In this document: positions 963-12,300 of the stretch, one piece after another
Layout of the letters: each line of letters begins with the position of its first letter
How positions within the stretch are numbered: the first letter of the stretch is position 1
Assembly: GCF_014196595.1 (NCBI RefSeq)
Contig: NZ_JACIEA010000002.1
Location: forward strand, 12,291-76,290
Origin: Sphingorhabdus rigui
GTDB lineage: Bacteria; Pseudomonadota; Alphaproteobacteria; Sphingomonadales; Sphingomonadaceae
Length of the DNA: 64,000 nt
Direction: 5' to 3'
Position numbers and translations under genes: made by a program
Notes under the pieces: model-generated
Told to the model about the DNA's origin: nothing
The model's input: the letters and a program-made list of their open reading frames with translations, nothing else
The model's database searches: none

Positions 963-2108
963 TCAGCGTTCATCAAAGGACTGGTCTACAGTTTTGATAA
1001 TTGGCTTGAGTAGGTACTTAAGTACCGTGTTACTTCCCGTTAGAATTTCAATTGTAGAAGTCATCCCGGGCTGGATTTCAATTTTCTCGCCGGCACGCGG
1101 ACGCATATTTTTCGTATCCACTCTGACATGGACACGGTAATAAAGTTGCTCGCCGTTCGACTTCTGCTCGGCGATGGTGTCTGGGCTGATGTAGATCACT
1201 CGCCCATCTGCCGGGCCAAAGATAGAGGCATCATAAGTGTCGAATTTGATAGACGCGGATTGCCCAATACGCACAAACGCAATATCCGATGGGGACACTT
1301 TTGCTTCCACTATTAATTCTTCGCCAGTCGGAACGATTTGTAAAACCTCATCGGACGGCCGCAAAACCCCGCCAATGGTGGTGAGGCGGACATTTTTGAC
1401 TATGCCATCCGTCGGGGCTTCCAAAATGGTATCCTGCAGGGCGACTTCACGTTGTTTTAGCGCCTGCTCCGCAGTCACCAGCTCATCGTCCACTTTGGCA
1501 TATTCCGCCTGAAGATCTTGAAGGTACTTATTCTGCCGATTTGCGATTTGCCCCTCAATATCAGCTACAGATCGTTCCAAACGCAGCACTTCAGATCGAC
1601 TTACGTCACCATATTCGAGAAGGGGCTGGTTCATGGCCAACTCTCGACGAACCAACAATAGCATGCGGTTTAGAGCGGCGATGTCCTGTGTTTGAGCAGC
1701 CCGTCTCTTAGCAAGTAACTGCCGCTGATTGGCCATGAACAGTGGAAAAGCTTTGACATCATCTGTAAATACAAGCGGCTTATCAAAAAGCTCTGCCTCC
1801 ATTCGCGCCCTCGCGGTCTTCAATGACGCTACTTTAGCTCTACTTTCGTCAACTGCTGCGCTAAGCCGGATGCGATCGAGCGTGACAAGGATCTGTCCCT
1901 TCGCAACGCGGTCACCTTCTTTAACGCCGATAGTTTCGATGACCCCGCCATCCGTGCTCTGGACTATTTGCACACGGCCCGATGGGATAACCTGCCCTGT
2001 AGCACGGCTTACCTGATCTATTTCGGCTACACTGGCCCACGCTATAAAGCCAATTATTGCAAGCGCTGTGAGCGAAATTATGCTGCGGGAAGAGCTTAGA
2101 TTAAACAT
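963..2108 (-). CDS. HlyD-family type I secretion periplasmic adaptor (LapC-like)
   Basis: Membrane fusion protein linking the inner-membrane ABC exporter to the TolC-like channel. A single N-terminal membrane helix (about residues 8-27) is followed by a lipoyl/barrel-sandwich half-motif (GQVIPSGRVQIVQS, GVIETIGVKEGDRVAKGQ), a long coiled-coil hairpin rich in Arg, Glu and Leu, the second half-motif (LEAPTDGIVKNVRL), and a C-terminal beta domain with VRVDTKNMRPRAGEKIEIQPGM typical of the family. I chose ATG 2108, whose bases overlap the TAA of the exporter gene. A longer form from TTG 2126 is possible. At 381 residues it is somewhat shorter than HlyD proteins of 430 or more. Confidence 0.93.
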   Translation of the reverse strand: MFNLSSSRSIISLTALAIIGFIAWASVAEIDQVSRATGQVIPSGRVQIVQSTDGGVIETIGVKEGDRVAKGQILVTLDRIRLSAAVDESRAKVASLKTARARMEAELFDKPLVFTDDVKAFPLFMANQRQLLAKRRAAQTQDIAALNRMLLLVRRELAMNQPLLEYGDVSRSEVLRLERSVADIEGQIANRQNKYLQDLQAEYAKVDDELVTAEQALKQREVALQDTILEAPTDGIVKNVRLTTIGGVLRPSDEVLQIVPTGEELIVEAKVSPSDIAFVRIGQSASIKFDTYDASIFGPADGRVIYISPDTIAEQKSNGEQLYYRVHVRVDTKNMRPRAGEKIEIQPGMTSTIEILTGSNTVLKYLLKPIIKTVDQSFDER

Positions 2109-4206
2109 GATTTTGCTCTCTGACAATGATACGCTGCCCAGTATTGGTGGTTTTTTCGGTCTTTGGCCTCAATCTTTCCAACACAGCATTGGTTGGACCA
2201 TCCAAGGAAATTTGGCCATTTGTGACAACAATTAGGCGATTGACCAGACTGACTAGCGGTAGCTTGTGAGTGACAAAAACTAGTGTACATTGAGGCCCGA
2301 TGGCTTCGAGGATAGCCGAAAGAATGCGTGCTTCGCTCTCTTGGTCAAGGTTTGCAGTTGGCTCATCCAAGAGTAGAAGCTTTGGTTTTGCAAGAATTAG
2401 GCGTGTCAGCCCAACTTGAACACGCTGTCCTCCTGAAAGTCCATTGCCGCCCTCAGAAATAGGTAGGTCGAGACCCATAGGGTGATTTTTGACAAGTTCA
2501 GCCAGTCCGGTTTTGGAGGCCGCCTGGAGCAGGATATCATCATCCTGCGCGGCCAGCCCTAAGTTCAGGTTACTTCGAAGCGAGCCCGTTATCAGGCGGT
2601 AATGCTGCGGGAAATAACAAACCTGGCTTCGTAAGTCTTCTTCGGCAATCTGCCGAACATCTACACCATCGAGCAATACATGTCCTTCGTTTGACGCATA
2701 TAGGCCAGCCATTAGCTTCAGGAGCGTTGATTTACCCGAACCTACTGGTCCAATAATACCAATACGCTCGCCTGGCGTAATTTTAAGGGTTGGTAAATTT
2801 AATCCATGCCGACTTCCTTGGTGTGCAAACTTAACATTCTCAAATTTAAGGCTGCCTCGAATTTCCGTCTGGCGGACCGTTGTAAAATCGGTTGGCTGGT
2901 CACTTGGCATTGTCAAGATGCCGTCTAGAGCGGTAAGTGATGAGCGAGCATAACCCCACTGAACGATAAGTGTAGGAAGTGATGCAATAAGGGGACCATT
3001 TACCCTTCCGCTAAGGATGGAGCACGCAATTACAGCACCCATGGTCATGTTACCGCTCGCAACCTGGAAAGCCCCAACGCAGACAACACCTACATAGGAG
3101 AGCTGCTGTATCAGCGAAAAGCCCGACCCCGAAAGCGTCGACCAACGCTTCACTTGAATATCGTGACCATGCACTTCGTCATTTAACCGGTTCCAGTTGG
3201 CAAGCATGTGCCACCCACCAGAGTTAGCCTTGATGGTCTCAGCGGCATCCAAGGCCTCGACCAGCTGTCCATTTTTGCGATTGCCGGTAACCTGAGCCGC
3301 CGCCGTGTCCTCACGGATGAACCGAGCCATCATCGCGGCTAGGCCAAGCGCCAATGGAAATGCTATTAGGGGGACAATAGCAACAATCCCACCCAACCAA
3401 GCCATCACAACCATAAACAAAAAGGCGAAAGGCAAATCGGCAATTACGAACAGGCTAGCCGAAGACATGAGCGAACGAACTTGGTCTGTCCCACGAAGCT
3501 GCGCCGCCATGGTTCCCACCGATGCGGGCCGAGCATCAAGCCTTACTGACTGCATTCGCGCATAGAAAAACTCGGATATTTCGCTGTCAATATTGCCAGC
3601 CTCACGGTCAATCATCATGGCGCGCGTGTTGCGAATGACCATATCGACGATCAGCGCAAAAACCATGCCTGCCGTTAAAACTAACAGCGTGGAATAGCCG
3701 GCACGGGGTATAACCCTATCGTAAACCTGCATTGAGTATATCGAAGTTACAAGTGCTATCAGATTGATGACAATGGTTGCGATTGTAGCGTCAACGATGA
3801 TCGTTTTTCGTTTTAAAATCGCAGACCAAAAAATGTTTATTGCGCGCTCTGTTCCCTCAATTTTTGCGAGCTTTGGGAAATCCACAGTCCAAAAAGTGAT
3901 GGAATTCGTCCAGTCGACTTCGACCACGCCTTTCGTCGTTATAAGGCGTATCTGCGCCTCATTTGTCCAGCTCTCGGCTATCGTCCAACCATATTCAGAA
4001 ACAAAGGCGAGAAGCGGAAAATGGTGCGCCCGTGGTCTGGCAGAATTGGCAGCGCACTTCCAACCAAGCTCTTCGCACAACGAGGCTAAGGCCGCGCTAT
4101 CGTCAACGGTAAGGTTGATGCTTTCCGTTCCCATCCAATTAGGATCAAGGGCAACTTTGTTACGCTGCGCATAGGCTGCGATAAGGTCAACAAAACGAAA
4201 TGTCAT
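2101..4206 (-). CDS. Type I secretion ABC transporter, permease plus ATPase (LapB-like)
   Basis: Inner-membrane exporter of 701 residues. Residues 1-125 form a C39-peptidase-like domain without the catalytic cysteine near its start, as in the non-cleaving domains of RTX/adhesin exporters. Membrane helices span about 133-405. The ATPase domain has Walker A GPVGSGKS (486-493), Q-loop Gln534, signature LSGGQ (590-594), Walker B LLLLDEP (610-616) and switch His647. Its ATG overlaps the TGA of the TolC-like gene (ATGA) and its stop overlaps the adaptor start, so the three exporter parts are translationally coupled. The degenerate peptidase domain suggests it binds and exports a large adhesin without processing it. 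Confidence 0.95.
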   Translation of the reverse strand: MTFRFVDLIAAYAQRNKVALDPNWMGTESINLTVDDSAALASLCEELGWKCAANSARPRAHHFPLLAFVSEYGWTIAESWTNEAQIRLITTKGVVEVDWTNSITFWTVDFPKLAKIEGTERAINIFWSAILKRKTIIVDATIATIVINLIALVTSIYSMQVYDRVIPRAGYSTLLVLTAGMVFALIVDMVIRNTRAMMIDREAGNIDSEISEFFYARMQSVRLDARPASVGTMAAQLRGTDQVRSLMSSASLFVIADLPFAFLFMVVMAWLGGIVAIVPLIAFPLALGLAAMMARFIREDTAAAQVTGNRKNGQLVEALDAAETIKANSGGWHMLANWNRLNDEVHGHDIQVKRWSTLSGSGFSLIQQLSYVGVVCVGAFQVASGNMTMGAVIACSILSGRVNGPLIASLPTLIVQWGYARSSLTALDGILTMPSDQPTDFTTVRQTEIRGSLKFENVKFAHQGSRHGLNLPTLKITPGERIGIIGPVGSGKSTLLKLMAGLYASNEGHVLLDGVDVRQIAEEDLRSQVCYFPQHYRLITGSLRSNLNLGLAAQDDDILLQAASKTGLAELVKNHPMGLDLPISEGGNGLSGGQRVQVGLTRLILAKPKLLLLDEPTANLDQESEARILSAILEAIGPQCTLVFVTHKLPLVSLVNRLIVVTNGQISLDGPTNAVLERLRPKTEKTTNTGQRIIVREQNHV

Positions 4207-5465
4207 GAGTTTGCATCGCTAGTAGGATCGGATGCCCACTGACCTGAAAGAAGGAGAAGTCTCGCCAGCGAGGATATACCTGCGATACGGGCCTCAACGG
4301 CATCCGTTTTGGCCGCAGTTTCCTCTCGCACTGCGTTCATCACATCGAGCCAGGTTCTTCGGCCACTTGTGAATTGTCGCAAATAAGATTCCGTGATCCG
4401 CTGGGCCGCATCAGATGCCGTTACGCTTCCTGAAAGACGTGACGTGGCAGATTCATATTCACGAAGCAGCGCAAACAACTGCTCACGCAGCCGTCTCTCT
4501 CCGGCGACGATTTGAAGTTCACCGGCCTCAACCCGCTGACGAGCAGCGTCTGCCGCTGCAAATCTTGAAAGGCCGCCGTCCGTTTTTGCTTTAAGAACGA
4601 TACCTACTCTGTGACCAAATGTATCACTGTAGCTATATTGGCTGCTCAGCTGCGGCAGGATCGAAGCGCGTGTTATCTGTGCTTCCGCACCTAACGCCTG
4701 CGCTTCAAACTTTAACCGTTTTAAATTAGGGCTAAAGTTCAAAGATTCATCTATTACATAGGCGTCGTCAAGACTAGGCCATGTTTGTACGTCGGGTGCC
4801 GATCCAATTAAATCTAGCAGCGGGTCTCCGACTAACTCTCGCAAGACGTTTAACGCAGAGCGCTCTTGTGCTTTTCCTTGAAAAAGCTGCTGTTCAACTT
4901 GCAGCGCACGAGTGCGTGCAAGCTCGAGGTCAGAAAGCGGACTTACTTCCTGAGCAACACGCCGCTCCATAGTGGCGACCATCCGGTTATGTTGCTCTAG
5001 GCTAACTGATAGCAACGCGTTTCGTTCACGCCACCGATGCACTTCATAGAAGGCCTGTGATGTAGATGAAGCAATAGCCAACACTGCCTCATCATATGCC
5101 GCCAATGCCGCATTTTCCCGAATTTTTGCTCGCTTAATTGTTCCTGATAGGCGCCCTCCGGACCAAAGTGGTTGCTCAGCAATTACTTGGGGTTGCAACT
5201 TATTCGATCGTTGATTCAGGAAAAGACCTTCAACAGAAAAGCTCGGAAACTGTTGCCATTTTGCGGAACGCGTATCCGCACCTGCAGCACGAACAGATGC
5301 CTCAGCAGCGGCAACCGATGGATGGGTCTTAACCGCTCGATTCACTAAGGAATGAACATCCGCTGATGACATCTCGCCGGCAGCTTGAGCAACAGGGCCG
5401 GACTTTGCTGCTAACGGAGAGGATAGTGCAACCAAAGTAAGGGTAAATAACATCTTTAAATTCAT
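4203..5465 (-). CDS. TolC-family outer membrane efflux protein of type I secretion
   Basis: Outer-membrane channel component of 420 residues. The first 20 residues form a signal peptide ending in SPLAA. The rest is helical TolC repeat sequence: two related halves with the NRAVKTHPSVAAAEASVRAAGADTRSA pattern near the start and heptad-rich segments such as ERRVAQEVSPLSDLELARTRALQVEQQL. It is first in the operon, followed with an ATGA overlap by the ABC exporter. The Shine-Dalgarno region upstream is weak. The operon looks self-contained: channel, pump, adaptor, substrate. Confidence 0.93.
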   Translation of the reverse strand: MNLKMLFTLTLVALSSPLAAKSGPVAQAAGEMSSADVHSLVNRAVKTHPSVAAAEASVRAAGADTRSAKWQQFPSFSVEGLFLNQRSNKLQPQVIAEQPLWSGGRLSGTIKRAKIRENAALAAYDEAVLAIASSTSQAFYEVHRWRERNALLSVSLEQHNRMVATMERRVAQEVSPLSDLELARTRALQVEQQLFQGKAQERSALNVLRELVGDPLLDLIGSAPDVQTWPSLDDAYVIDESLNFSPNLKRLKFEAQALGAEAQITRASILPQLSSQYSYSDTFGHRVGIVLKAKTDGGLSRFAAADAARQRVEAGELQIVAGERRLREQLFALLREYESATSRLSGSVTASDAAQRITESYLRQFTSGRRTWLDVMNAVREETAAKTDAVEARIAGISSLARLLLLSGQWASDPTSDANS

Positions 5466-5484
5466 GTTTTATAATAATTTCTTA

Positions 5485-5500
5485 AAACGACGCGTTGTTT
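5485..5500. promoter_or_regulatory. Near-palindrome before the secretion operon, possible operator
   Basis: AAACGACGCGTTGTTT is a 16-bp palindrome with one mismatched pair, 20-35 bases upstream of the TolC-like ATG. A small stem (TTGTT/AACAA) overlaps it at 5495-5508. The position suits a regulator-binding site, but no regulator is encoded nearby and no convincing -35/-10 pair was found. Confidence 0.25.
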
Positions 5501-5750
5501 CTCAACAAGGTCATAATCGATCTTGATGTAAAATGATTTAACGAACACCCATATCCTGTTTAACCTATTTGTAAATTGTTTAGATTCTCAACGTTGGCTT
5601 CGGACATGTAGCCCCAGACAAAGGAGCTGTAATGCCTGAAAAGGCAGGAAATTAGCTAATTTTTTCGCGACGAAGTCTGCGGCACAACCTCCTCTAAAAA
5701 TCGGTAGGTTATGCCTGTGACCCTTTAGTCGGCATCTGCGATGCAGGTGC
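5501..5750. other. AT-rich intergenic region between secretion operon and recombination module
   Basis: No supported gene here. It contains the perfect 14-bp palindrome AAATTAGCTAATTT (5649-5662) followed by further T residues, a hairpin TGCCT-GAAA-AGGCA (5633-5646), and the words CATGTAGCCCCAGACA (5605-5620), which recur in changed form just after the HTH gene (6091-6106). The promoters of the divergent genes on both sides should lie in it. A left attachment site of the mobile element could also lie here, but no duplication of tRNA sequence is visible. Confidence 0.5.
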
Positions 5751-6089
5751 ATGATTTCGAAAAGCACCAAAAAGCCATCGCATACTCCCGCTGCTTCGAC
5801 ACCCATTAGTCGCGTGGACCTACCCGCGTGGGTGTATGCAGAGCCTGAGCCCGAAGCTCATGCGACAACGCCGCACGACGCGGTGGTCATTACAAACGAC
5901 CTACTGACCAGAGCAGAGGCTGCGCGATATCTGCGCGTCTCTGACCGCACGGTGTCACGCCTTATTCGCAAGAGCCAATTGCCCGCTTCACGCATCGGAC
6001 GCGCCGTACGTATCCGACAATCAGACCTGCTCGACATGCTTGATGGAAAGCCGAGTATTTCCGACGTTTTGGATAATTGTCGTGAATAA
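5751..6089 (+). CDS. Excisionase-like helix-turn-helix DNA-binding protein
   Basis: A 112-residue protein with a disordered N-terminal half rich in Pro, Thr and Ala. A winged-helix/MerR-like excisionase domain (HTH_17 type) follows from about residue 46 (LLTRAEAARYLRVSDRTVSRLIRKSQ, then IGRAVRIRQSDLLDML). Small proteins of this type act as recombination directionality factors or as regulators of adjacent integrases. It lies 84 bp upstream of the first tyrosine recombinase on the same strand, which fits an Xis role. The long N-terminal tail is more than a minimal Xis has. Confidence 0.8.
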   Translation: MISKSTKKPSHTPAASTPISRVDLPAWVYAEPEPEAHATTPHDAVVITNDLLTRAEAARYLRVSDRTVSRLIRKSQLPASRIGRAVRIRQSDLLDMLDGKPSISDVLDNCRE

Positions 6090-6173
6090 GCATAGCCCCA
6101 TACAGGGTTGAAAATGTAGTATATGTACCCACGAATATCACCTTATGTCCGCTCCAGTCCCCACGAGGTTTAG

Positions 6174-7853
6174 ATGACCCATAACGACCAACATAAACCG
6201 ACCCTTGCAGACGCCCTTGTTGCGCTGGCGGATGCGCCGCTGACCGACATCCAGAAGCGCGATACGCGCAGCGCCGTGATGACCTTCTGCAAAGCGCTGG
6301 GTCTGCAGCCCGGCGAAGTGCCTGCAAGTAATATATATATCCGACGTAAATTGGAAAGCATCTCGTATATTGCGCTTGGATATTCCAAGGGCCGCTGGGG
6401 AAATGTGAAAACCGGCGTGGCGCGTGCTGTGGGTCTTGTGGGCAAAAGCTATCCAAGCCGCAACACAACACCACTGCTGCCGCAATGGGCTGCGCTTCTG
6501 GAGAAGCTGCCGGCGTCGCTTAAACGGAAAGTTTCATCAGGCGCACGGTATCTCAGTGGCCTTGGTGTAGATGTTAATGGCGTGTCATTGAGTGACCTGC
6601 ATAGCTACCGCGATACTATCTTGAACGATCGCATGCGTGCAAATGCCGAGCAGGCATGGGACCATTTTTTGTGGGGGTGGAACCGGGCGGTGGATCAATT
6701 TCCAGACACGTGGCCGCAAATCACAATCCCGCGCGATGAGAAGCGCGAGATCTATGTCTATCCATTCGCATTCTTCCCACCGTCGTTCGAGGCGGACGTA
6801 AACGCTTATGCTGATCGCATGCGTAATATAAACTTGGACGATGATGGCCCTGTGCGTCCTTCACGGCCTACGACCATTAAAACCCGCACCCGCCAGTTAC
6901 GGACCGCAGCATCGGTCCTTGCCCGGTCCGGCGTTGACCCTGCGACCATTACCGGCATTGCCCGTCTGGTCGAGGTCGATAACTTCAAGCTGATTTTACA
7001 CTTTCACATGGAGAGGGCTGGCGGAAAAACGTCTGCAGGGGTCGTGCAAATCGCATCGTGCCTGCGCAATGTTGCCCGCCACTACGTCAAGGTAGATGAG
7101 GAGCATGACCGGAAGATGAGTGCTCTATGCAAAAGGGTATCTGTGCAGACAGGCGGGCTTACGGCCAAGAACCGTGAGCGGCTTCGCCCATTTGATGATC
7201 CTGAGCATGTAAGGCTGTTTTTATGCCTGCCGGACACCATCCGGCAGCATGTGGAGCACGACAAGCGGGCGCCATTACAAAAGGCGGTCTTGGCGCAGGT
7301 GGCAGCCGCAATCGCGTTGTTACTGGCAACGCCTATCCGCAATGCCAATCTTTGCGCCATCGACATCCATCGGCACCTGAAACCGCAACGTAAAGAGGTC
7401 CATCTGGTCATTAGCGAAAGCGAGACCAAAAACAGGCATCCGGTGGATTTTAACATCCCGCCTTATGCCTTGGAGATCCTGCGTTGGTACATGGCCGAGT
7501 ATCGGCCATATCTGGTCCGTGAACCAACTGATGCCTTGTTCCCTGGGCGTAATGGCAAGCACAAGTCTACCCATACGCTTGGCCTACAAATTAAAAAGAT
7601 CGTCTTTGAGTTTACCGGCCTTACGTTCAACGTTCACCTCTTCCGGCATTTTGCCGGAAAGGTGTTCCTCGACCAGCAACCGGGCAATTATGAAGTGGTG
7701 CGGCAGGTCTTGGGGCACAAACGGTTGGATACGACCACAAGCTTCTACTCTGGGGCCGAAGCCAAGCAGGCAAGCGCCATGTTCAATGATGTGGTTGATA
7801 CGCTGCGGGCGCAGCATGCGTCGAAACCCAAGAAGCGGAGGGCTGGCAAATGA
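6174..7853 (+). CDS. Tyrosine recombinase/integrase, large (559 aa)
   Basis: Site-specific DNA recombinase with a complete catalytic set: Arg389 (ATPIRNANL), Lys near 419 (SETKN), His488-x-x-Arg491 (HLFRHFAG), His515 (LGHKR) and nucleophile Tyr525 (TSFYS). The roughly 340-residue N-terminal part is much longer than in phage integrases and carries the arm/core-binding functions. GAGG lies just before the ATG. The stop overlaps the start of the next recombinase by 4 bp (ATGA). Size and pairing recall the two recombinases of Tn554-type elements, but this is analogy only. It is not XerC or XerD, which are both present elsewhere in the window. Confidence 0.93.
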   Translation: MTHNDQHKPTLADALVALADAPLTDIQKRDTRSAVMTFCKALGLQPGEVPASNIYIRRKLESISYIALGYSKGRWGNVKTGVARAVGLVGKSYPSRNTTPLLPQWAALLEKLPASLKRKVSSGARYLSGLGVDVNGVSLSDLHSYRDTILNDRMRANAEQAWDHFLWGWNRAVDQFPDTWPQITIPRDEKREIYVYPFAFFPPSFEADVNAYADRMRNINLDDDGPVRPSRPTTIKTRTRQLRTAASVLARSGVDPATITGIARLVEVDNFKLILHFHMERAGGKTSAGVVQIASCLRNVARHYVKVDEEHDRKMSALCKRVSVQTGGLTAKNRERLRPFDDPEHVRLFLCLPDTIRQHVEHDKRAPLQKAVLAQVAAAIALLLATPIRNANLCAIDIHRHLKPQRKEVHLVISESETKNRHPVDFNIPPYALEILRWYMAEYRPYLVREPTDALFPGRNGKHKSTHTLGLQIKKIVFEFTGLTFNVHLFRHFAGKVFLDQQPGNYEVVRQVLGHKRLDTTTSFYSGAEAKQASAMFNDVVDTLRAQHASKPKKRRAGK

Positions 7854-8932
7854 GCGGCGGTCGTTATGGTCCGAACAAGACGCCTGAGCGGCGGTGCATG
7901 CCACTTGCGCTTTGGCCAGAGGCTGACCGCACTGTCTGGCAAAATGCGCTGACCCCAGGGACCATTCTTGACGATCACCTCGGGGCATTGGCGCATCTGT
8001 CCGTTGCTTCCAATTACAAAGTCGAGCGTGGATATGGACGGTTCTTAACATACTGCAAAATACATGAGCCTGACTGCCTACAGGAGGCACCTGCCGAACG
8101 TATTAGCCCACAGCGGGTAAAGTCGTACATCAACCACCTTACCGACATTGGTAACAGCACACAGACCATTATGTGCCGCCTGCAGGATGTGGGTAGTATG
8201 GCTTCACTGTTGGCGTCTGAGCGCGACTGGTCATTTATCAACCGTCTCGCAAGCCGCATCCGCGCGCGTCACAAGCCCGCCCGCGAGAAAAGCCGCATAT
8301 TGATGACCGATGAATTGGCGCAGCTCGGCTATGACCTCATGCACGCCGCCCAAAGTGACGACAGCATATCGGATGCCGTGCAATATCGCGACGGGCTCAT
8401 GATCGCCTTGCTTGCCTATGTCCCCATCCGGCGCAAGAACTTCACCGCCCTTGAAATCGGCAGCAGCATCGTGCGGCGGCAGGGTCAGTGGTTTATCCAA
8501 CTCACCCCTGAGCAAACCAAAACCCATGCATGGTTCGAGACGATACTGCCGCCGGCCCTTGAGCCATACCTGCAGCGCTACCTCGACTTCTATCGCCCAA
8601 TGCTGGTGGCCTGCACAGGCCGCTGGCGGAAACCAACAGGCAATGCGCTTTGGATATCGAACCACGGCTCGCCGATGACGCAGGATGGCCTTTACAGCCG
8701 TATATGCCGGCACACAGGCGAACGGTTCGGGGAGCACTGCTCGCCACACATGTTCCGCGATGCTGCAGCCTCAACACTGGCGACCGAGGCGCCTGAGTAT
8801 GTCCGGATGGCAGCGCCGCTGCTCGGCCACCGCAGCTTCCAAACCACCGAGAAATACTACCGTCAAGCCAAGGCCCAAGAGGGGCATGGTAGTTTTGTTA
8901 AAACAATTACCGCACTTAGAGGAGAAGGATGA
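7850..8932 (+). CDS. Second tyrosine recombinase of the module (360 aa)
   Basis: A different tyrosine recombinase translated through an ATGA overlap from the first. Catalytic residues are visible: Arg194 (VPIRRKN), His300-x-x-Arg303 (SPHMFRDAAA), His327 (LLGHRS) and a tyrosine at 336/337 (TEKYYRQ). The N-terminal SAM-like core-binding domain spans about residues 35-140. It overlaps the following 293-aa gene by 4 bp, so the three genes are expected to be expressed together. Two non-identical recombinases encoded in tandem suggest a heteromeric recombination complex. Confidence 0.93.
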   Translation: MSGGRYGPNKTPERRCMPLALWPEADRTVWQNALTPGTILDDHLGALAHLSVASNYKVERGYGRFLTYCKIHEPDCLQEAPAERISPQRVKSYINHLTDIGNSTQTIMCRLQDVGSMASLLASERDWSFINRLASRIRARHKPAREKSRILMTDELAQLGYDLMHAAQSDDSISDAVQYRDGLMIALLAYVPIRRKNFTALEIGSSIVRRQGQWFIQLTPEQTKTHAWFETILPPALEPYLQRYLDFYRPMLVACTGRWRKPTGNALWISNHGSPMTQDGLYSRICRHTGERFGEHCSPHMFRDAAASTLATEAPEYVRMAAPLLGHRSFQTTEKYYRQAKAQEGHGSFVKTITALRGEG

Positions 8933-9810
8933 TGGATAGCGAAAATAACAGTCAGCAATTCCAGCCAATAGAGGGGCCGAGCGAGGAGGAATTCAAATTT
9001 ATAAGAATCGACTTTAAGCTCAGCAAAACAGCTATGGCCCAACTTCGGTCTACCCTTTCCGAAGCAGTAGACCATTACTCCGCATTCCGACGAGATTCGA
9101 TTTCAGCCGAACAGCGCAAAGAGGTCCGGCAAAAAGCCAAGCGCGCATCGAAGTTAATGGGCGACCTGATAAGGCTGTTCTCGGAAAACAATTCTCAACA
9201 GGTGATGAAATCATTTGAAGGTAGGGTGTATTGGGAAGGCTTATTCGGACCGAGCATGATTGAGGAAGCATTCGGCGAGGACATTACATCCAAAGAATAC
9301 GAGAAGCTTCGCAGCATTCGTGCGGATGAACTAGAACAAAGGGCGTCACAAACAGCTGAAGCTGGAGGCCATCAAAGTGGTAGGTTCGAACAAAATCCAG
9401 TGCAAGACCACAGCGCTGAGATGCTGGTGTTCCTGTTCAAACGGCTACGGTACCCGTTCGACTTATGGTTACAGCTTGCAAGTTATGGGAAGTATGGACG
9501 GCCACCCGAGCCCTTACGCCAGATATTACTAATCTACCTTATTCGAGATGCGCGCGAGATATTGGGCGAAGGATATACTAGGGGTGATTTAATCAAACTT
9601 TGTTCTGACGTTAGCGGATATTACGGTATAGCTGATGACGGAATTGGGGATGCTTGTGACCATATCCTGGGTAAGCACGAAAAAGACTTTGCGTGGTTAA
9701 ACCTACCAAAATTGCAGCCCTTTGACCAAGAGATGCTTGAACGTTGGAATGCGGAAAAACTCGATGATCCCGAGCCGCTGCTGACGCCCGCAAAACCGGC
9801 GACAGAATAG
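8929..9810 (+). CDS. Uncharacterised protein, third gene of the recombinase module
   Basis: Not recognised. It is 293 residues, hydrophilic and largely helical by eye, with a charged N-terminal half (AEQRKEVRQKAKRASKLMG) and a C-terminal half with aromatic and acidic residues. It has no recombinase His-x-x-Arg motif, no zinc ligands, no signal peptide and no membrane segment. The start overlaps the stop of the second recombinase (ATGATGG; start at 8929 or 8932). The tight coupling suggests an accessory factor for the recombinases, similar in position to TnpC of Tn554, or a cargo protein. I see no sequence basis for a function. Confidence 0.75.
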   Translation: MMDSENNSQQFQPIEGPSEEEFKFIRIDFKLSKTAMAQLRSTLSEAVDHYSAFRRDSISAEQRKEVRQKAKRASKLMGDLIRLFSENNSQQVMKSFEGRVYWEGLFGPSMIEEAFGEDITSKEYEKLRSIRADELEQRASQTAEAGGHQSGRFEQNPVQDHSAEMLVFLFKRLRYPFDLWLQLASYGKYGRPPEPLRQILLIYLIRDAREILGEGYTRGDLIKLCSDVSGYYGIADDGIGDACDHILGKHEKDFAWLNLPKLQPFDQEMLERWNAEKLDDPEPLLTPAKPATE

Positions 9811-9859
9811 TGCCCCTTATGCGGATCTCAGTGGTCAGTAACTCTGGCAGGCATTGCGC

Positions 9860-10027
9860 ATGCCACGGAAAGCCAACCCGCATAATGAAGCTGAAAGCCA
9901 ACGACAGTTGGTCGATGACTTGTGTGTCGAGTTGGTCGATTTTGGATCCGACTTCCCAATTTCTGCTGCCGAACTCGATGCGCTTGAGCAGCTTTTGGGC
10001 GCTGATTTGCGCGAACTACTCCAATAA
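9860..10027 (+). CDS. Small acidic protein preceding the serine recombinase (55 aa)
   Basis: A 55-codon frame from ATG 9860 to TAA 10027: MPRKANPHNEAESQRQL, then an acidic helical segment VDDLCVELVDFG and a Leu-rich end ELDALEQLLGADLRELLQ. Composition is protein-like, and GGCAGG precedes the start. It ends 49 bp before the serine recombinase ATG on the same strand. The function is unknown; a partner or regulator of the recombinase is plausible. The overlapping frames in this stretch look non-coding (Cys/Ser/Trp-rich). Confidence 0.6.
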   Translation: MPRKANPHNEAESQRQLVDDLCVELVDFGSDFPISAAELDALEQLLGADLRELLQ

Positions 10028-10076
10028 CCCACCAGCCTCCATTGCGGCTGGCCAAAGCCGTAACTGAGAGGCCAAC

Positions 10077-11738
10077 ATGGCATTTGCAGCCACCCCGACC
10101 ATTACCCAGCCCAAACGCGTTGCGCTTTACCTGCGGGTCAGCACCGGACGTCAAGCAGAAGGCGATGTCTCGATCCCTTCGCAGCGCGATGTCACGCAGC
10201 GGTTTTGCGAAGCCCAAGGCTGGGAACTCACCTGTGAATTTGTGGAACCCGGCGCTTCGGCCACCGATGACCGCCGCCCGGTATTCCGGCGCATGCTAGA
10301 GGAAGCATCGCGTCCTGATCGCAGGTTCGATGTGATCTGTGTTCACGCCTTCTCGCGCTTTTACCGCAATGGTGCTGAGATGGAGCTCACCATTCGTAAG
10401 TTACGCAAGCAAGGCGTCGAGGTCATCTCAATGAGCCAGCCCACCGGCGATGATCCGAGCCAGCTGCTGATGCGCCAGATCATTGGTATCTTCGATGAGT
10501 ACACCTCCCGCGAGAACGGCAAGAATGTGAGCCGCTCGATGCGCGAGTCGGCCAAGCAGGGATTTTGGAACGGTGCTACCGCTCCGCTCGGCTACTGCAT
10601 TGTCGAGGCTGAGAAGCGCGGATCCAAGATCAAGAAGAAGCTGGCGGTCGATCCTGTGGAAGCAGAACTCGTGCGCCTGATCTTCACCCTCTATGCGTAT
10701 GGCATCGATGGCGCTCCCCCGCTTGGGGTTAAGGATACCACCAAGTGGCTCAATGCCAAAGGCTATCGTACCCGCAAAGGTGCAGCGTTCGGCGTTGGCC
10801 CTATCCATAACATCCTAACAAACCGGACCTACGCTTTGGGCATCTGCCGCTACGGCGTTCGCAATGGTCGGACCCAAGAACTTAATGACCCCGAAAGCGT
10901 CGTGGAGATCCCCGTGCCTACAATCCTACCCTTACCGCTGTTCGAGGCGGTGCAGGCCAAGCTTACCCGCAACAATCCCAAGGTCACAGCACCCCGCGTG
11001 GTGAACGGTCCGATCCTGCTCACTGGTCTTGCTGTTTGCGCCACCTGTGGATCGTGGATGACCCGCACCGGTACAAAGCGAGGTAATCGCTCCTACAGCT
11101 ATTACACTTGTGCAGGCTGTCATCAAAAGGGGCCTTCGGTCTGCAAGGGGCGGCATATCCCGCTGGCCAAGCTTGACGACCTCATCCTCACCAACGTCAA
11201 GGAACAGCTCCTCGCGCCTGAACGCCTCGAAGATATCCTGTGTAAGCTTGTGGAGCGGCGCACCTCGCGTCAAACCGAGGTTGCAGAGCGGCGCTGTGCC
11301 CTTGAAGCCCAGCGCGACAAAGCAAAGGACAGGCTAGCTCGGCTTTACCGTGCCATCGAAGATGGCGTGGTGGAACTTGATGCAGACCTCAAGGACCGCA
11401 TCCAAGCCATCAAGCAAGAGCGGGATCTGGCCGAAACAGCAATCGAGAGGATCACCGATACGGCAGCGAGCCGAACCGAGATTACACCTGCACGTCTGGC
11501 CGCGTTCTCGGACCTAATGCGCGACAAACTCGACACAGGCGATATCCACGCCCGCAAAGCTTACCTGCGCGCTGTCATATCCCGCATCGAAGTGGGTGAT
11601 GAAAATATCCGCATTATCGGAGAAAAGGCCAGCTTAGAGAAGGCTGTCGGTACCACACTAACGGGGAAAATCCCTGTTAGTGGTTTGGTACGTAAATGGT
11701 GCACCCAACTGGATTCGAACCAGTGGCCCCCAGATTAG
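10077..11738 (+). CDS. Large serine recombinase
   Basis: A 553-residue integrase-type serine recombinase. The resolvase domain occupies residues 13-160 with nucleophile Ser22 (YLRVSTGRQ) and conserved HAFSRFYRNGAEME. A recombinase domain follows (about 185-300, GYRTRKGAAFGVGPIHNILTNRTY), then a zinc-ribbon (CATCG...CAGC...C, about 320-360) and a C-terminal coiled coil (about 385-470). GAGAGG precedes the ATG. The last 13 residues (WCTQLDSNQWPPD) are encoded by the complement of a tRNA-Arg gene, and the stop codon falls on its anticodon, so the present C-terminus is probably a product of integration next to the tRNA. It is likely the integrase of the genomic island to its left. Confidence 0.94.
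   Translation: MAFAATPTITQPKRVALYLRVSTGRQAEGDVSIPSQRDVTQRFCEAQGWELTCEFVEPGASATDDRRPVFRRMLEEASRPDRRFDVICVHAFSRFYRNGAEMELTIRKLRKQGVEVISMSQPTGDDPSQLLMRQIIGIFDEYTSRENGKNVSRSMRESAKQGFWNGATAPLGYCIVEAEKRGSKIKKKLAVDPVEAELVRLIFTLYAYGIDGAPPLGVKDTTKWLNAKGYRTRKGAAFGVGPIHNILTNRTYALGICRYGVRNGRTQELNDPESVVEIPVPTILPLPLFEAVQAKLTRNNPKVTAPRVVNGPILLTGLAVCATCGSWMTRTGTKRGNRSYSYYTCAGCHQKGPSVCKGRHIPLAKLDDLILTNVKEQLLAPERLEDILCKLVERRTSRQTEVAERRCALEAQRDKAKDRLARLYRAIEDGVVELDADLKDRIQAIKQERDLAETAIERITDTAASRTEITPARLAAFSDLMRDKLDTGDIHARKAYLRAVISRIEVGDENIRIIGEKASLEKAVGTTLTGKIPVSGLVRKWCTQLDSNQWPPD
11650..11691. repeat. Imperfect inverted repeat beside the tRNA, candidate attachment site
   Basis: Nested arms: GTACCA (11650-11655) with TGGTAC (11686-11691), CACTAAC (11656-11662) with GTTAGTG (11676-11682), and GGGA with TCCC around an AAA loop. 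It lies inside the 3' end of the serine recombinase gene, 5 bp from the tRNA CCA end. It could be an arm of the recombinase attachment site, or a structure at the 3' end of the tRNA precursor. There is no T-run of an ordinary terminator. Confidence 0.5.
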
Positions 11739-11773
11739 GAATCTGATGCTCTATCCTGCTGAGCTATGGGTGC
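11697..11773 (-). tRNA. tRNA-Arg (anticodon CCU)
   Basis: The minus strand folds as a 77-nt cloverleaf. The acceptor stem is GCACCCA with TGGGTGC, discriminator A, with an encoded CCA end at 11699-11697. The D stem is GCTC/GAGC. The anticodon stem is TCAGA/TCTGG around the loop TTCCTAA with anticodon CCT (11739-11737). The T-arm contains ACTGG-TTCGAAT-CCAGT. It decodes AGG. The 3' half overlaps the end of the serine recombinase gene on the other strand. Core chromosomal genes begin just beyond its 5' end. Confidence 0.95.
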
Positions 11774-11808
11774 TGCGTCCCAAGCCATAGCTGCGTGCTA
11801 TCGGGTGG

Positions 11809-12300
11809 TCAATTTTTAGCCGAAGGCGGCACGACTGGAAAAAGGAGTGGTGCAACCTGAACGCCTTCCTCCATCAGTGCCTTGGCTTCGTCGGCGCTTG
11901 TTTCGCCATGGATGATACGATCTGCTTCTTCACCATAATGGATGGCGCGGGCGGTTTCGGCAAACTGGCCGCCGACCCATTGCGATTGTTTCAGCATCTC
12001 GGTTTGCGCAACCGCAAGCTTTTGAACGAACTCCACAACCGCAGGCGGCAGCGCGTCGGTTTTTACAGGCTCAGCTGCGGCGGCGGTTGGCGCTGCTACA
12101 TCCGCGATAGGAACCGGCACGCTGCGTTGATTCCCCTTTTTGGGCACATGCGGAACGGACAGCGCCTTTTGCACCGCCATGTCATTACACACCGGACAGG
12201 CCAGCAACCCGGACGTTTGCTGCTTGGAATAATCTTCGGATGACGCAAACCAGCCTTCGAAACGATGTCCGTTGCTGCAATTCAGGTCAAACGCGATCAT
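11809..12300 (-). CDS. DUF1178 family protein
   Basis: A 163-residue protein with an N-terminal zinc-ribbon-like pair of Cys motifs (FDLNCSNGHRFEGWF and LLACPVCND) characteristic of DUF1178, a family common in Proteobacteria with no established function. Its ATG overlaps the grxC stop by one base (TAATG). It is the third gene of the run comF-grxC-DUF1178 on the minus strand. Confidence 0.9.
   Translation of the reverse strand: MIAFDLNCSNGHRFEGWFASSEDYSKQQTSGLLACPVCNDMAVQKALSVPHVPKKGNQRSVPVPIADVAAPTAAAAEPVKTDALPPAVVEFVQKLAVAQTEMLKQSQWVGGQFAETARAIHYGEEADRIIHGETSADEAKALMEEGVQVAPLLFPVVPPSAKN

Follow-up and report, generated by a model that had tools for sequence, protein, structure and literature searches.

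The stretch analysed here (hereafter the window) comprises 64,000 nucleotides of the Sphingorhabdus rigui genome (contig NZ_JACIEA010000002.1), the assembly of which consists of 2.47 Mb in 8 contigs. The window carries a recombination module with genes for an excisionase-like helix-turn-helix protein (HTH), two different tyrosine recombinases (YR1 and YR2), a protein without recognised motif (X), a small open reading frame (ORF; Y) and a large serine recombinase (LSR), which ends inside a tRNA-Arg(CCT) gene (Table 1). In the codes used below, G000 is the window's own genome, other G codes are compared genomes and L codes are loci. An earlier note, made from the sequence alone, had described the four ORFs from HTH to X, the lengths of YR1, YR2 and X, a gap of 84 bp between HTH and YR1, and four-base ATGA overlaps at the YR1/YR2 and YR2/X junctions; all of these coordinates and spacings were borne out. 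Y, LSR and the tRNA-Arg(CCT) gene overlapped by LSR lie just downstream of the interval that the note had covered.

Table 1 Features of the recombination module in the window
Feature	Position	Strand	Remarks
Candidate left-end site, imperfect inverted repeat GGCACAACC...GGTTATGCC	5681..5715		Homology between copies with differing surroundings begins here
HTH, excisionase/MerR-type, 112 aa	5751..6089	+	HTH_17, E 4.7e-15; TIGR01764 (excise), E 1.8e-12
YR1, tyrosine recombinase, 559 aa	6174..7853	+	Pfam Phage_integrase, E 3.3e-13
YR2, tyrosine recombinase, 360 aa	7850..8932	+	Pfam Phage_integrase, E 3.1e-12
X, 293 aa, mostly helical prediction (low confidence)	8929..9810	+	Seen in Sphingomonadales only
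Y, 55-aa ORF	9860..10027	+	Kept 5' of LSR in 6/6 Sphingomonadales modules
LSR, large serine recombinase, 553 aa	10077..11738	+	Resolvase, Recombinase and Zn ribbon domains
tRNA-Arg(CCT), probable integration target	11697..11773	-	Its 3' 42 bp double as LSR coding end

The identification of two tyrosine recombinases and an excisionase-like HTH protein was confirmed by clear Pfam and NCBIfam matches, HTH scoring 47.4 bits against the NCBIfam excisionase model TIGR01764 (cut-off, 28.8). Over ten aligned loci, R389, K419, H488, R491, H515 and Y525 were invariant in YR1, as were R194, K224, R303, H327 and Y337 in YR2, in which the first His of the HxxR box was not invariant. LSR has the attributes of the large serine integrases of the phiC31/Bxb1 class, namely the Resolvase, Recombinase and zinc ribbon domains and a catalytic Ser (S22, invariant in 10/10 aligned sequences). 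X had no Pfam or NCBIfam match at E <= 0.1, in agreement with the earlier description of it as a protein lacking a recognised motif.

A survey of 385 alphaproteobacterial genomes with a YR1 profile (E <= 1e-25) gave matches in 14. In eight of them (G000, G378, G392, G525, G569, G617, G705 and G709), LSR follows YR2 directly or past one or two ORFs; since G525 and G617 belong to one genus and have identical surroundings, the eight genomes represent seven lineages. The G378 contig begins too near YR1 for any HTH gene to show. A 257-aa ORF without Pfam match lies between YR2 and LSR in G709, and in the other six non-sphingomonad loci LSR stands directly behind YR2, with a 4-base overlap in several. 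The YR pair was found without LSR in three of the 14 genomes (G347, G371 and G687); in the rest, the contig ends first (G340 and G410) or YR1 is truncated (G485). Pfam confirmed the identity of LSR in L102, L105, L106, L173 and L179. No X profile match (E <= 0.01) was obtained in the 13 loci of this survey other than the window.

A tblastn search (E 1e-5) of plasmids found YR1 in 19 records and YR2 in 22, and nine regions from eight records were looked at closely. Five of the nine had HTH-YR1-YR2 without LSR (Roseomonas and Pukyongiella) and two had LSR behind YR2 (Azospirillum), YR2 and LSR being broken frames in TSH58. Another region had YR2 with a truncated YR1, and one had YR1 without YR2. 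On one Azospirillum oryzae record (NZ_CP054621.1; L011 and L012), an HTH-YR1 region lies ca. 22 kb from a YR2-LSR pair, a layout that insertions into the module may have brought about. The X profile matched none of the nine regions. Two IMG/VR contigs (L173 and L174) carry near-identical HTH-YR1-YR2-LSR modules. The HTH-YR1-YR2 order thus recurs in several families of alphaproteobacteria, both on chromosomes and on plasmids, and because the same gene order is found in other genomes, the arrangement is not a chance one; on the sequences compared, the recurring unit is HTH-YR1-YR2-(X)-LSR. The earlier note had proposed a distinct family of integrative element and had named beforehand the failure of the genes to co-occur elsewhere as grounds for giving it up. 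The genes do recur together, and what stands of the proposal is that the module is integrative and present in several families, and that in it two unlike tyrosine recombinases form a conserved pair next to an excisionase-type HTH. Two observations made by eye concern the surroundings of these loci. Two long ORFs (500 and 613 aa) lie behind YR1, and a transposase-like ORF before YR2, in L011/L012. In L101 (2044-2628) and L112 (1803-2387), 194-aa ORFs sharing a YWNLA..AWV-like stretch lie 5' of HTH and are perhaps shared cargo.

YR2 was present in five of 45 genomes of the window's genus (G000, G083, G180, G317 and G320), all of which have HTH-YR1-YR2-X and then LSR, complete in three and cut by a contig end in two. 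The left block is 89.1, 87.8, 90.0 and 86.0% identical to that of the window at the DNA level; homology stops at 8934-8935, two codons into X, and restarts at 9702-9706 or 9968. Within the genus, the recombinases are 87-95% identical, with synonymous divergence (pS) of 0.25-0.45 for YR1 and YR2. X sequences of different types share 21-31% identity (pS 0.68-0.89), and those within a type are 77% (pS 0.26) or 60% (pS 0.65) identical. The 60% pair comes from G180 and G317, whose DNA following X is 96.8% identical over 1159 bp, a stretch that spans Y and the first part of LSR. LSR occurs in two types that are 60-62% identical, and the HTH of G317 is divergent, with 38% identity to that of the window. 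By this pattern of divergence, alleles of X, LSR and HTH have been exchanged around a constant YR block. A sixth Sphingomonadales module, from a metagenome-assembled genome (L179), has the order HTH-YR1-YR2-X-Y-LSR at tRNA-Arg(ACG), with 52-55% identity for the YR proteins and 60% for LSR.

The ends of the module were examined by means of remnants and of copies in differing surroundings. In G333, the left end and HTH are followed by LSR from the equivalent of window position 10264 up to tRNA-Arg(CCT); in a second locus of G317, the left end is joined to a terminal portion of LSR that lies at tRNA-Arg(ACG); and in G331, the left end and HTH remain along with the final 78 bp, next to a sequence resembling tRNA-Arg(ACG). 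These three remnants, which keep both ends and lack the middle, support the view that ca. 5.68-11.70 kb is one unit. In addition, in a second locus of G320 the left end and HTH run into a mid-LSR part at a contig end, and the right 199 bp alone are retained in G297. On the right, the end is flush with the tRNA in tRNA-Arg copies. On the left, copies in differing surroundings are alike only inward from an inverted repeat of ca. 31-35 bp, which is thus a candidate left-end site judged by where homology begins. Better copies of this repeat, of the form CATAAC-N19/20-GTTATG, occur in G180, G083, G333 and L179, which are partly kin by descent, L179 being the least so; the repeat scores of these four best copies were reached by 2-4 of 100 simulated sequences. 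The second locus of G320, G333 and G331 have ca. 140 bp in common further left of the repeat; this stretch was rejected as part of the element, as it is absent from other copies.

The remnants also bear on the possibility that two elements are nested here, in which HTH-YR1-YR2(-X) was once inserted beside a tRNA-targeting LSR island, the operon reflects nothing other than neighbourhood, and the pair moves by itself or resolves plasmid multimers. Such a history agrees with the LSR-less HTH-YR1-YR2 sets on Roseomonas and Pukyongiella plasmids, with the frequency of LSR without the pair (described below) and with the mosaic HTH, X and LSR alleles that flank the conserved YR block. It is at odds with the retention of both outer ends in the three deletion remnants and with the adjacency of YR2 and LSR in seven class-survey lineages, several with a 4-base overlap and involving two LSR subfamilies. 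We regard nesting as improbable.

In the window, the final 42 bases of LSR are the 3' end of tRNA-Arg(CCT) on the opposite strand, and the LSR 3' end was available in 16 module loci (the window, L175, L176, L179, L006, L012, L028, L101, L102, L103, L105, L106, L107, L108, L173 and L174; L175 and L176 were scanned for tRNA genes as L024 and L025, L176 also under its own label). LSR overlaps a predicted tRNA by 42-45 bp in seven of the 16 (Arg in three, Met in four), and the LSR end of L108 contains a stretch closely like tRNA-Met, the remainder being masked letters. A search of 396 genomes of the order for LSR of the window type (E <= 1e-60) gave matches in 51. The best 30 loci, one per genome, were inspected; three belong to module genomes and 27 lie outside the genus and the modules. 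Among these 27 best-scoring non-module loci, none had HTH, YR or X matches within a flank of up to 1.5 kb, and in 25 a tRNA (Arg, Ser, Leu or Thr) overlaps the LSR frame. A Y-like ORF ending 67-73 bp 5' of LSR was seen in 7/27 of them versus 0/27 in an antisense control, a count that is descriptive only, as the pattern was drawn up after such ORFs had been viewed. Since this LSR family also occurs without the YR pair and ends in tRNA genes, the LSR of the window is probably the tRNA integrase. As in tRNA-integrated islands, an intact tRNA lies beside the integrase gene.

These loci also weigh on the idea that HTH, YR1, YR2, X, Y and LSR form one machine for a single integration and excision reaction, in which X would be a specificity or bridging factor like TnpC, GinD or Srap. 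The overlap of the genes, the presence of two LSR subfamilies in the same place behind the YR pair and the retention of X in all six Sphingomonadales modules are in its favour. X is further predicted, with low confidence, to be mostly helical, and Srap and GinD are described with a C-terminal coiled coil, Srap being auxiliary, in the cited sections of PMC10214605. On the other hand, LSR relatives do without YR and X in all of the 27 loci, the YR pair occurs without LSR in three class-survey genomes and five plasmid regions, and X has no match outside Sphingomonadales. A single machine seems unlikely.

Based on these results, we favour, with moderate confidence, the explanation that window 5.68-11.70 kb is a two-system recombination module, located against tRNA-Arg(CCT) in a Sphingomonadales chromosome, that belongs to an integrative element or forms the right-hand end of a genomic island; LSR would act at the tRNA and the YR pair elsewhere. 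This explanation draws on the gene order and its recurrence, the LSR-tRNA overlap, the occurrence of LSR without the pair, the ends marked by remnants and the exchange of X and LSR alleles, all of which can be read from the sequences compared; from them we infer the site at which each enzyme cuts, what HTH, X and Y do, and present-day mobility, as described below. A circular form of the element would carry LSR, with an attachment site (attP) at the LSR 3' end that matches the 3' half of the tRNA. LSR would join the circle into tRNA-Arg, the element's copy restoring the tRNA gene. HTH-YR1-YR2 would constitute a second, separable heteromeric tyrosine recombinase system, with HTH as a directionality factor or regulator. 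The YR pair would act at a second site, probably the left inverted repeat 5' of the HTH gene, where it may excise or circularise the unit, resolve multimers, or add or remove DNA to the left. Y, being small and found with the LSR family, is a possible directionality factor of LSR. The DNA that carries the module is probably mobile.

Several observations weigh against this two-system explanation. On the left, the repeat score of the window was reached in 20 of 100 simulations, which places it modestly above chance, and those of four other copies in 17-61 of 100, the best repeat there being mostly another sequence. In five loci scanned, the right arm of the repeat had no second exact copy, and its single one-mismatch match lies inside YR1 of L175. 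The sequence AGGTTATGCC, allowing at most one mismatch, has seven matches in the window versus 2.35 expected, a number reached by 0/100 shuffles; two of the matches are the left-end repeat, and the rest are scattered, none of them near the right end. On the right, eight of the 16 module loci with an LSR 3' end have no predicted tRNA there. For G000, the matches listed include no further tRNA 3' half to equal the one in G083. The latter, a point in favour of the explanation, is a 47-bp copy situated on a different contig, ca. 1.2 kb away from the gene next to the tRNA in G315, as expected for a left attachment site (attL). No empty and occupied pair with both flanks matched was found among the genomes compared, and tRNA-Arg(CCT) is a hotspot with differing DNA across them. 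The split of LSR into two ORFs in G705 and the broken YR2 and LSR frames in TSH58 show that some copies are decaying.

The last point of this kind comes from the co-divergence of the recombinases. In Mantel tests, the divergences of YR1 and YR2, in support of a conserved pair, were correlated over ten loci (r 0.69, equalled in 5/5000 permutations) and over the six non-sphingomonad loci (r 0.65, equalled in 248/5000). For LSR, the ten loci gave r 0.37 with YR1 (29/5000) and r 0.61 with YR2 (3/5000), and the six non-sphingomonad loci gave r -0.25 and 0.12, respectively. LSR does not track the YR proteins outside Sphingomonadales, so the tests do not show functional coupling. The LSRs of the non-sphingomonad modules are 39-55% identical among themselves and 20-25% identical to the sphingomonad ones, and the YR1s of the same modules share only 25-32% identity. 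The two LSR subfamilies behind the YR pair, which in turn speak for the two-system explanation, mean either that the pair was joined to LSR twice or that LSR was exchanged in place.

Further searches for attachment sites gave the following results. Direct repeats sought within 4800-12200 comprised short families only, and in the stretches examined to the left of nine LSR/tRNA loci, no exact match to the tRNA end exceeded 11 bp. Comparison with empty sites at mmsB (G180) and at tRNA-Arg(ACG) gave no clean pair.

X is far more variable than the neighbouring recombinases and is present in all six Sphingomonadales modules. Single-protein searches of genome contigs and plasmids found no relative, nor did an alignment search of viral contigs, and an order-level search of 296 genomes matched three, each belonging to the same genus as the window. 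Across the six sequences, X has no invariant His or Tyr. AlphaFold2 gave a mean pLDDT of 41.8 for X alone and of 57.2 with the six sequences, Foldseek searches of PDB and BFVD returned no match at E <= 0.001, and a sequence profile search of PDB returned nothing below E 0.3. Low-ranked Foldseek matches to Cre-like proteins (probability ca. 0.1) were disregarded, and a PADLOC search gave a weak match (E 0.05) that is not meaningful.

The earlier note had cast X as a dedicated cofactor of the recombinases. The absence of X profile matches from the 13 other class-survey genomes and the nine plasmid regions speaks against this, and X is not a cofactor of all such pairs; its retention in all six Sphingomonadales modules, one of them with recombinases only 52-55% identical, speaks for it. 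Membership of X in an unrelated cargo family, which would have told against the proposal, was not indicated, as no known cargo family matched in four libraries. That X is nevertheless ordinary cargo, for example of a defence, exclusion or toxin type, that sits in the operon by happenstance is compatible with any reading of the module and is a real possibility, albeit one towards which we lean less than halfway. The 21-31% identity between types, the exchange independent of neighbours and the lack of a family match are what cargo would lead one to expect, and the constant position and the single recognisable family in all six modules are not. In the two-system explanation, and with the same moderate confidence that we place in that explanation as a whole, X is a lineage-specific accessory protein, the alleles of which are exchanged independently of the surrounding genes; it may serve as a compatibility factor or an auxiliary one, or be cargo.

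An extension of the two-system explanation is a mixed-class system, in which stable entry at the tRNA would be the task of LSR, exit or the exchange of cargo that of the YR pair at a second, lox-like site, and X would be a rapidly diversifying compatibility or specificity factor. Both classes would then have been combined more than once, or been kept while the serine enzyme was exchanged, and would cooperate in one element. Taken together, these statements are tentative, and we consider them doubtful.

Pairs of different recombinases are known in XerC/XerD and TnpA/TnpB, and TnpC, to which the earlier note had compared X, is presumably the smaller protein. The Tn554 type (TnpA, TnpB and TnpC) likewise has two adjacent tyrosine recombinases, a longer one and one of ca. 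350 aa; in the cited sections of PMC3414803, the longer recombinases related to Tn554 have 611-828 aa, and a TnpC-related third gene is common. The LSR and the HTH gene are extra in the module of the window. The plasmid records matched by YR1 and YR2, in a search that did not compare the Tn554 proteins themselves, included none from Staphylococcus, Novosphingobium, Rhodococcus, Mycobacterium or other actinobacteria.

RIT elements, described in part in the same source, resemble the module in their overlapping recombinase genes and their occurrence in alpha- and betaproteobacteria (PMC3414803), but have three tyrosine recombinases instead of two tyrosine and one serine recombinase. The conclusion of the earlier note that this is not a RIT element holds, as X has no Phage_integrase match and a serine recombinase comes next. 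GInts, according to the excerpted text of PMC5385486, are cargo islands with ginABCD at the 5' end, which encodes three tyrosine recombinase-like proteins and the small GinD; the likeness lies in the multi-recombinase operon, the auxiliary last gene and the association with genomic islands (PMC5385486). The window is set apart by its gene content, namely two tyrosine recombinases, the motif-less X and then LSR. The strand-biased circularizing elements (SEs; intA-tfp-intB and srap) share two tyrosine integrases and auxiliary proteins with the module, and are reported, in the sections cited, in Gammaproteobacteria only and with four core genes that include no serine recombinase (PMC10214605). 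Unlike in SEs, YR1 and YR2 are directly adjacent in the window, with no gene between, and the order is another. The LSR-only tRNA loci of Sphingomonadales share the Y-LSR half and the tRNA overlap, with HTH-YR1-YR2-X upstream in 0/27. Going by gene content, the module belongs to none of the RIT, GInt and SE groups.

A review of mobilizable elements treats tandem tyrosine and single serine recombinases separately in the part cited (PMC5704250). We recognised no description of an operon of a tyrosine recombinase pair and a serine recombinase in the excerpts of open-licence literature examined, PMC5704250 and PMC12884075 among them. The module is real and recurs, and parts of it are recognisable, namely a tRNA-associated LSR and paired tyrosine recombinases, in an arrangement that we did not find described.

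To our knowledge, integrative elements are usually described with a single recombinase class. An operon of both classes, each half of which is also found alone, offers natural combinations for dissecting the roles in entry versus exit. The constancy of the YR block while X, LSR and HTH are swapped marks X as an unusually fast-changing protein linked to recombination. Moreover, LSRs whose 3' ends lie in tRNA-Arg, Ser, Leu and Thr genes supply ready candidates for tRNA-directed serine integrases for alphaproteobacteria.

Some further observations concern the surroundings of the module and of its tRNA genes. In G307, tRNA-Arg(CCT) contains the end of a different serine recombinase gene (520 aa), and copies (46-52 bp) of the tRNA 3' half lie near tRNA-Arg(CCT) in G318 and G301 (hotspot loci L065, L067 and L068). 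Just left of the left-end repeat of L179, a partial tRNA (L179:8318-8373), by eye the 3' half of tRNA-Gly(GCC), is 91% identical to a stretch at G714:C13:66949-67004. A second remnant of an LSR 3' end (L190, near G714:C16:58429) lies ca. 41 kb to the left of the tRNA at which the L179 module sits, and the genes between the two look catabolic by eye. Behind the LSR of G180 (L025 7529-11411), ORFs like ParB-type, DUF5681-like and terminase-like genes were seen by eye. Directly left of the module in the window (963-5465, and L059, G000:C2:1-14000) are HlyD-, HlyB- and TolC-like type I secretion genes, recognised by eye and adjoined by very large repeat-type ORFs; the DNA of this secretion-gene region, which is perhaps island cargo, has matches in 4 of the 45 genus genomes, the window's included.

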